Positions 32,781-34,627 of a stretch of 49,722 nucleotides of DNA are shown one piece after another. Source of the DNA: Chloroflexota bacterium (GTDB lineage: Bacteria > Chloroflexota > Dehalococcoidia > UBA2979). The translations under genes were made by a program, and so were the position numbers. How positions within the stretch are numbered: position 1 is the stretch's first letter; each line of letters opens with the position of its first letter. The notes under the pieces are model-generated. The model ran no database searches. It saw only the letters and a program-made list of their open reading frames with translations, and had not been told where the DNA came from. The stretch is taken from positions 1 through 49,722 of the forward strand of contig QWQU01000004.1 in assembly GCA_003670735.1 (NCBI GenBank), read 5' to 3'.

Positions 32781-32987
32781 TTACGGTGCGGCGCGCCGCT
32801 GGCGCGGCTCGACGGAACGCTGCTCTTCCAGCCCTTGCAGGCGGCGAGCAATCTGGCGGTTCTGGACGCCGGTGGCCGCCTCGCGGTTCGCCCCGGCGAC
32901 CTGCTCGGCCAGCTCCTCACGGAGCACCCCGACCTGGTCGGGCGCCTCAATGCCGATTTTTACCCGGTCACGCCACGCTGGCGTGAG
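32781..32987 (-). pseudogene. CsrA-like C-terminal fragment (N-terminal half missing)
   Basis: Minus-strand translation LTPAWRDRVKIGIEAPDQVGVLREELAEQVAGANREAATGVQNRQIARRLQGLEEQRSVEPRQRRAAP*; RVKIGIEAP..V.VLREEL matches the CsrA C-terminal half; an in-frame TGA lies upstream at 32988-32990 and no MLVLTRK-like start is present. Confidence 0.5.
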
Positions 32988-33446: not shown

Positions 33447-33743
33447 TCAGGCGTTCGGCGCGGTCCCGTGGAACGAGTATTCCAGGTGCTCGGCGACCGA
33501 CATGTTCATCTGGGAGCGCAGCGCGAGGTCGAAGTCCTCCTGCGCAGCCTTGTCTGCCTGCTCGGCGGTGTCCCACACGCCGATGCGGCCCATATAGCCA
33601 TCCGGCTCGACGGGTTCGAGGCGGTAGCCGGTCAGATAGCCGGGCTGAGAGGAGAAGAAGCCGACCAGACGGTCGATCAGGTCGCGGACGCGCTCTTCCT
33701 CGCCAGGACGAGGGCGCATCAACGAAACACGGACATAAGGCAC
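33447..33743 (-). CDS. Antibiotic biosynthesis monooxygenase (ABM)-like ferredoxin-fold protein
   Basis: GTG start: VPYVRVSLMRPRPGEEERVRDLIDRLVGFFSSQPGYLTGYRLEPVEPDGYMGRIGVWDTAEQADKAAQEDFDLALRSQM. Confidence 0.65.
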   Translation of the reverse strand: MPYVRVSLMRPRPGEEERVRDLIDRLVGFFSSQPGYLTGYRLEPVEPDGYMGRIGVWDTAEQADKAAQEDFDLALRSQMNMSVAEHLEYSFHGTAPNA

Positions 33744-33785: not shown

Positions 33786-33807
33786 GCCCACCTCACCCGA
33801 GGTGGGC
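33786..33807 (-). terminator. Hairpin between the zinc-ribbon and ABM-like genes
   Basis: GCCCACCTC-ACCC-GAGGTGGGC, 9-bp perfect arms. Confidence 0.55.
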
Positions 33808-33861: not shown

Positions 33862-34074
33862 CTAGAGGCGGAGCTTGCCGTGCGACGGCTGGCGGCGACG
33901 CTGCTTGCCAGCGGCCAGGCGCTCCTCCTCAAGGATCTCGGCCGGGTCGGCAATCTGGTTCTCGTGTACGTAGCCGCACGCGATGCAGGTGCCGAACTTC
34001 CCGTACCAGTCGTCCTCAATGATCATGAGGCCACGGCAACGCGGGCAGGACTTGGGCGGTGCTGAGTTGTTCAC
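33862..34074 (-). CDS. Small zinc-ribbon protein downstream of a c-di-AMP riboswitch
   Basis: GTG start with GAGGAG RBS: VNNSAPPKSCPRCRGLMIIEDDWYGKFGTCIACGYVHENQIADPAEILEEERLAAGKQRRRQPSHGKLRL; CPRC-x(n)-CIAC. Confidence 0.8.
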   Translation of the reverse strand: MNNSAPPKSCPRCRGLMIIEDDWYGKFGTCIACGYVHENQIADPAEILEEERLAAGKQRRRQPSHGKLRL

Positions 34075-34121
34075 GGGATACTCCTCGCGAGCCGGATACC
34101 CTCCGGTGCGGGCCTGTTCCA

Positions 34122-34235
34122 CTGCCGACGGGGTTAGCTGACGGGTTCGGGCGATCAGGTTGCCCGCTCCTCGAAAGGAGTTCACCCCAGATGTTGGGTC
34201 CCCCGGCCGCCGGTTGCTTGCCGGCGATTAGGCAG
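34122..34235 (-). promoter_or_regulatory. c-di-AMP riboswitch aptamer (ydaO/yuaA leader class)
   Basis: Minus strand: CTGCCTAATCGCCGGCAAGCAACCGGCGGCCGGGGGACCCAACATCTGGGGTGAACTCCTTTCGAGGAGCGGGCAACCTGATCGCCCGAACCCGTCAGCTAACCCCGTCGGCAG. Matches the remembered consensus blocks GGGGGACCCAA / TGGGGTGAA / CCCGAAyCCGTCAGCTAACC; terminal CTGCC/GGCAG can form P1. Confidence 0.92.
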
Positions 34236-34271
34236 GGCGCTCCTCCGCGCCAATCTCTTCAAATCTCATTA

Positions 34272-34300
34272 TCACAATCAAGATGACTTCGTGATTGTGA
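34272..34300. repeat. Inverted repeat at the presumed start of the riboswitch transcript
   Basis: TCACAATCA-N11-TGATTGTGA, perfect 9-bp half-sites. Confidence 0.7.
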
Positions 34301-34307
34301 CGACAAG

Positions 34308-34335
34308 AGCATACTCAGGCGGTTTAGCCTGTCAA
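34308..34335 (-). promoter_or_regulatory. Candidate promoter of the c-di-AMP riboswitch transcript
   Basis: Minus strand TTGACA (34335-34330), 16-bp spacer, TATGCT (34313-34308). Confidence 0.7.
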
Positions 34336-34414
34336 TAGTATGGTTCACCTCCTTTCAACATTTGGACGCCTGCCGTTAACACGGGCCTTCGAGGCAGCCC
34401 GCAGGTCGGGCCGC

Positions 34415-34545
34415 TGCTATGCTGACGCCGTCTCGTGCGAGGCCCGGGGAAGTCGGTGCGATCCCGACGCTGTCCCGCAACTGTGACCGGCGTTTGAGTC
34501 TGACTCGACGGCGGAAGCCAGAGCACCGGCCCGCACCCACATTGG
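34415..34545 (+). promoter_or_regulatory. Cobalamin riboswitch (boundaries approximate)
   Basis: GGGGAAGTCGGTGCGATCCCGACGCTGTCCCGCAACTGTGACCGGCG...GCGGAAGCCAGAGCACCGGCC; canonical B12-element core, upstream of a B12 operon. Confidence 0.93.
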
Positions 34546-34627
34546 TGACCGAACCCGCGAGGACGGGGCATCGGCTCGCGACGACCGTGTCGCGCGCTGC
34601 CTTGAGGCGCTGACGAAGCGTCTTCCC

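Follow-up and report, generated by a model that had tools for sequence, protein, structure and literature searches.

A riboswitch aptamer of the known c-di-AMP (ydaO/yuaA) class was found directly in front of a small zinc-ribbon gene in the stretch of Dehalococcoidia DNA analyzed here (49,722 nucleotides, hereafter the window), and the same arrangement recurs across the class. The class-wide association of this aptamer with an unnamed, conserved zinc-ribbon family is new within the open-access literature that was searched: the full-text search returned no paper naming c-di-AMP together with Dehalococcoidia, and the literature searches turned up no c-di-AMP riboswitch described together with a zinc ribbon, nor one described from Dehalococcoidia. 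Most work on c-di-AMP has been done in Firmicutes, and some in Actinobacteria. Because the target gene adjoins the aptamer in 13 of 15 families, which is a strong genetic hint of a core c-di-AMP output, the genomic pattern suggests that c-di-AMP signalling in Dehalococcoidia has in the zinc-ribbon protein a major output that has not been described before. The whole account, in which a dedicated zinc-ribbon gene specific to this lineage carries a c-di-AMP riboswitch in its 5' leader and all the mechanism steps proposed below apply, is in our judgement evenly poised between right and wrong.

The window forms one of the 84 contigs of a draft genome of 1.36 Mb that is 77% complete. The named relatives with the same protein belong to the Dehalococcoidia and Chloroflexota and include Tepidiforma; families are given under anonymous labels, of which f1 is the family of the window and f33 includes Tepidiforma. 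On the minus strand the locus reads, from 5' to 3', promoter, inverted repeat, RF00379 aptamer, a 33-nt stretch, the zinc-ribbon gene and an ABM-like gene.

Aptamer and c-di-AMP synthesis

The aptamer (34108..34244, minus strand) matches RF00379 over the full model (positions 1-134) with 72.5 bits, compared with a gathering score of 38, and an E value of 5.5e-15. Its helices covary, with two-sided compensatory changes in 10 of the 19 predicted pairs among 37 related aptamers, and a CCUG/CAGG pseudoknot is present between loop and 3' tail, for which the mean best helix was 5.1 within a sequence in comparison to 4.2 between families. The same loop/tail pairing is readable in the sequence of the crystallised ydaO (4QLM) printed in PMC5393176. 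A diadenylate cyclase was also found in the window's own genome (PF02457, G000:C9:321-671, E 7.8e-40). The sequence-only reading of this DNA had assigned the aptamer to the c-di-AMP class and had proposed an RF00379 search and a search for a diadenylate cyclase as checks, and both of them came out in its favour.

The cyclase was present in 44 of 60 relatives, and the more distant class members among these 60 without RF00379 mostly had no cyclase as well. Thirteen class members (G037, G039, G040, G042-G048, G051, G053 and G058) have neither diadenylate cyclase nor aptamer. That both are missing in many members suggests that a part of the Dehalococcoidia has lost c-di-AMP signalling.

Pairing of the aptamer with the zinc-ribbon gene

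The zinc-ribbon protein and RF00379 were both searched over one sample of 394 Dehalococcoidia genomes. Of these, 137 have the zinc ribbon in full length, and 135 of the 137 also carry an RF00379 aptamer; two have the zinc ribbon only, 20 the aptamer only, and 237 neither. The Fisher p value of this co-occurrence is 1e-80, a figure which ignores relatedness and is to be read only as "strong". The two zinc-ribbon genomes without an aptamer anywhere are G177 (f20) and G328, the latter only 69% complete, so that an assembly gap may explain its case.

A total of 131 zinc-ribbon loci from 15 families were looked at closely, with upstream aptamers placed either by a covariance model built from relatives (37 aptamers) or by the original RF00379 hits. 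The aptamer lies immediately upstream in 113 of the 131 loci and in 13 of the 15 families, so the pairing that the sequence-only reading had proposed to survey in relatives is indeed widespread. By family, the aptamer was upstream in 40/40 loci of f1, 34/37 of f33, 14/14 of f59, 5/6 of f16, 5/5 of f66, 4/4 of f34, 4/4 of f70, 2/2 of f60 and 1/2 of f25, as well as in the single loci of f22, f31, f53 and f68. No upstream aptamer was found, at permissive thresholds too, in the remaining 18 loci: f20 (0/11, which leaves out seven further f20 zinc-ribbon genomes), f50 (0/2) and five others, so that 13 of the 18 come from the two families in which no examined locus has an aptamer. The earlier reading had named a zinc-ribbon gene without the aptamer as evidence against itself; such genes do occur at these 18 loci, mostly in f20 and f50, while the other 113 are paired. 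Since the 18 loci have no aptamer, c-di-AMP control is not essential to the zinc-ribbon gene. Judged from the genomic arrangement, riboswitch control of the gene where the two are paired is very probable.

As a separate observation, aptamers at two loci, L005 (G036) and L006 (G052), precede zinc ribbons without the RRRQPSHGKLRL tail described below, and the L005 protein matches the zinc-ribbon profile with an E value of 4e-8.

Leader structure and direction of the switch

In the first step of the proposed mechanism, which the sequence shows, a strong sigma-70-type promoter makes a leader with TCACAA at its start; the leader then folds into the c-di-AMP aptamer and continues straight into the zinc-ribbon gene. 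The stretch between aptamer and gene (34075..34107, minus strand) is the candidate expression platform, with a small CCGGA-GGGUA-UCCGG hairpin and the Shine-Dalgarno sequence GAGGAG, and without an intrinsic terminator.

Leaders were scanned for a U-run in combination with RNA folding; an earlier scan for perfect stems had found few terminators. Six families have intrinsic terminators straight after the aptamer (f33 19/34, f34 4/4, f53 1/1, f59 12/14, f68 1/1 and f70 4/4), with 41 of the 58 leaders between aptamer and gene having a hairpin followed by a U-run, and in most of the leaders listed the 3' pseudoknot strand overlaps with the 5' arm of the terminator (AAAGGCC or similar). By their sequence, the leaders of the six families appear to be of the standard transcription-terminating design. 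No recognisable intrinsic terminator was found in the f1 leader of the window, and because a U-run is present in only 1 of the 40 f1 leaders, the switch in this family probably acts on translation initiation. The f1 platform itself is a guess, as no terminator was found and the folding energy of the window leader is no better than that of shuffles.

The sequence, the helices and the loop/3'-tail pseudoknot are those of ydaO/yuaA riboswitches, and so is the downstream intrinsic terminator in several families, although not in f1. The usual targets of that class are a cell-wall hydrolase, a K+ transporter or an osmolyte gene, whereas the target here is an undescribed zinc-ribbon gene. The nlpC riboswitch of Corynebacterium glutamicum belongs to the same aptamer class and is reported to act mainly on translation without a canonical terminator (PMC9960051), as would be expected for f1, but its target is a cell-wall peptidase, unlike the zinc ribbon here. 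The characterised members of the class are OFF switches (PMC9960051), and by analogy the zinc-ribbon riboswitch is likely to be an OFF switch as well; in the terminator families, the pseudoknot strand overlapping the terminator arm could alternatively make an ON switch. In the second step, modelled on the characterised OFF switches, high c-di-AMP would thus give a bound aptamer and less zinc-ribbon protein, through intrinsic termination in f33, f34, f53, f59, f68 and f70 and through a block of translation in f1, while at low c-di-AMP the protein would be made. Low c-di-AMP is classically the state under hyperosmotic or low-K+ conditions. A cultured species has the zinc-ribbon gene (Tepidiforma flava, NZ_CP115149), and the clear terminators in some of the leaders make simple in vitro tests possible.

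The zinc-ribbon protein

The GTG-started frame with CPRC...CIAC pointed out earlier is present at 33862..34074 (minus strand) and encodes a 70-aa protein with a C-x2-C-x16-C-x2-C pattern, an acidic linker and a RRRQPSHGKLRL C-terminus. The 88 distinct sequences have in common the C-x2-C-x16-C-x2-C pattern, a linker of 22-26 residues and the motif RRRQPSHG. The knuckle spacing is always 16, and the exact RRRQPSHGKLRL end is found in 124 of 131 loci. RRRQPSHG is found in all 131, which holds partly by construction, since full-length profile hits were counted as loci only with this motif, a rule that excluded one tail-less second copy (L223, G343). The invariance of the tail across 15 families is still striking, the selection of loci notwithstanding. 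The gene is under purifying selection: in comparison with relatives, synonymous differences are seen at 15-43 codons and amino-acid differences at 5-15.

The protein passes no Pfam or NCBIfam cut-off. The nearest profiles, both below the Pfam cut-off, are the TFIIB ribbon (PF08271, 23.8 bits in comparison to 29) and the RPB9 ribbon (PF02150, 18.2 bits in comparison to 25.2). An AlphaFold2 model of modest quality (pLDDT 75, pTM 0.47, tail about 60) predicts a ribbon of three strands and a helix at 44-54, with the tail only loosely placed. None of the Foldseek fold matches in the PDB reaches an E value of 0.001, and these are mostly transcription-type zinc ribbons and ZifS; PDB searches with the profile and with the tail gave nothing significant. 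With the TFIIB, RPB9 and RPC10 ribbons the protein has in common the Cys4 pattern and the predicted three-stranded ribbon, but the scores stay below cut-off, the rest of those proteins is missing here and the RRRQPSHGKLRL tail stands instead. The top-ranked fold match, ZifS (TTHA0897, a small zinc-finger protein of Thermus thermophilus, PDB 8yoz), is of similar size (77-79 aa), but the match is not significant (E 0.17, TM 0.37). No relative was found in viral contigs, and in a phylum-wide sample of 349 genomes the protein was found in 8, all of them Dehalococcoidia, and not outside the class.

In the third step of the mechanism, the zinc-ribbon protein would be no enzyme but a small nucleic-acid- or machine-binding adaptor, whose TFIIB/RPB9-type ribbon displays the invariant basic RRRQPSHGKLRL tail. 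This tail would dock on a conserved partner, for example RNA polymerase, the ribosome or RNA, and gene expression would in this way be tuned to the level of c-di-AMP; the neighbouring ABM-like protein may work together with it. We hold an adaptor docking on expression machinery or RNA to be a tentative reading of the sequence, with less than even odds. Action on the gene-expression machinery as such is about as tentative or slightly more so, and a version in which the protein is a novel regulator of transcription or translation throughout the class, with its dose set by the c-di-AMP riboswitch, is doubtful. If true, c-di-AMP would have a branch onto the core gene-expression machinery and not onto the wall, K+ or osmolytes. 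The earlier label of an unrecognised c-di-AMP "effector" is fair only in the sense of a c-di-AMP-regulated target. With its almost fixed 12 residues, the tail makes the binding partner findable by pull-down.

In a different role, the protein would resemble Ruc (Rv0991c), reportedly a small redox-regulated chaperone, and act as a chaperone or stress protein that responds to redox state or zinc. Here oxidation would break the ribbon and the charged tail would bind clients, with c-di-AMP adding only an envelope-stress input. The small size, the four-cysteine ribbon and the charged, poorly structured C-terminus agree with such a role, but a disordered client-binding tail is not expected to hold 8 of 8 residues (RRRQPSHG) invariant over 131 loci while the linker drifts, and searches of Pfam and NCBIfam gave no match to families of this kind; we regard a Ruc-type protein as unlikely.

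Promoter and TCACAA element

The near-consensus promoter TTGACA-N16-TATGCT reported for this locus was borne out at 34308..34335 on the minus strand, with 10 of 12 matches; it is the sole one in 1 kb, compared with 0.1 expected in shuffles, and most relatives have the same arrangement. At the predicted transcription start lies an inverted repeat, TCACAATCA-N11-TGATTGTGA (34272..34300, minus strand), which is a candidate operator or 5' RNA hairpin. TCACAA is found 24-36 nt after TTGAC[AG] in 76 of the 131 zinc-ribbon loci, in comparison to 0.05 expected from mononucleotide shuffles, and in most families it is at the predicted start of transcription. The aptamer-less families f20 and f50 retain both promoter and element, and f33 has TTGTGA, the inverted form, upstream of the -35 instead of TCACAA at the start. 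TCACAA may serve as an operator, or else form the 5' stem of the transcript.

The first of these possibilities leads to another explanation, in which the zinc ribbon is a DNA-binding autoregulator with TCACAA as its operator, and the aptamer adds a second input independent of it. The pattern TTGACA-N24-32-TCACAANCAC had 13 sites in 36 genomes and 12 of them were at the zinc-ribbon gene, which speaks for such an operator, as do the basic tail and the persistence of the element in families without the aptamer. Yet the half-site spacing varies and the repeat could be a 5' RNA hairpin, the position of the element changes between most families and f33, and a 70-aa ribbon without a helix-turn-helix would be an unusual operator-binding protein. 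Autoregulation is on these grounds rather improbable, although a little less so than a chaperone of the Ruc type.

Downstream genes

The small genes downstream had been suggested as further members of the system. The first of them, a 98-aa ABM-like protein of the dimeric alpha-beta barrel type (33447..33743, minus strand), is real; its score against PF03992 (E 1.9e-4, 22.0 bits) is just under the Pfam cut-off of 23.1, hence "ABM-like". At 58 of the 131 loci, from 8 or more families, this gene comes next after the zinc ribbon and is therefore a conserved neighbour (f1 18/40, f33 24/37, f59 5/14, f16 4/6, f34 4/4, and one locus each in f22, f53 and f70). For the other two, the CVHH ribbon and the csrA fragment roughly 650-1000 nt beyond the zinc-ribbon gene, no tie to the system was found. 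The CVHH/CRRC frame has no family match in Pfam or NCBIfam. The csrA fragment (about 32898-32969, minus strand) was correctly recognised (PF02599, E 7e-7), covers the C-terminal half only (profile positions 28-51) and is probably a relic.

The recurrence of the ABM-like gene behind the zinc ribbon, at 58 of 131 loci in several families, would also fit ordinary synteny, in which case the aptamer would serve a longer operon or the ABM-like gene itself, and the zinc ribbon would be no more than the first small frame of the transcript. Against this, no ABM-like gene was found behind the aptamer and zinc-ribbon pair in f31, f60, f66 and f68, nor in part of f1, f33 and f59, and in the window the GC-rich hairpin GCCCACC-TCGGGTGA-GGTGGGC (33786..33807, minus strand), which is without a U-run, lies between both genes; the terminator scan found none between them. 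Mere synteny is improbable, and the least likely of the explanations weighed here.

Other riboswitches in the genome and the phylum

The second aptamer of the window's own genome (C58) precedes a membrane glycosyltransferase-like protein, and in other class members aptamers stand before a trehalose-phosphate-synthase-type enzyme (PF00982), a nucleotidyltransferase/CDP-alcohol enzyme and a radical-SAM protein. In other Chloroflexota classes they lie mostly before OtsA-like proteins, glycosyltransferases, a transporter ATPase and small unknown proteins, and not before the zinc ribbon. The single-contig genome G093 has seven RF00379 aptamers, a large c-di-AMP regulon for its size.

A second small, uncharacterised Cys4 family, distinct from the zinc ribbon studied here and with the pattern EEDxxRG...CxxC...GSVxY...LCNRC, was found downstream of RF00379 at L003 (f25), L070 (f16) and L071 (f22). 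Small Cys/His zinc-type proteins, for example CPVCEADF...AAAH and CAGC...CCSDC, also follow aptamers at L341, L342 and L357, which belong to other families of the phylum. These sequences suggest that small zinc proteins may have been recruited repeatedly behind c-di-AMP aptamers.

Divergent from the c-di-AMP leader, the window also contains a cobalamin riboswitch (34386-34548, plus strand; RF00174, 36.8 bits, E 7.9e-6), which precedes a BtuF-like gene and a run of B12 synthesis- and uptake-like genes (34647 to about 45500).
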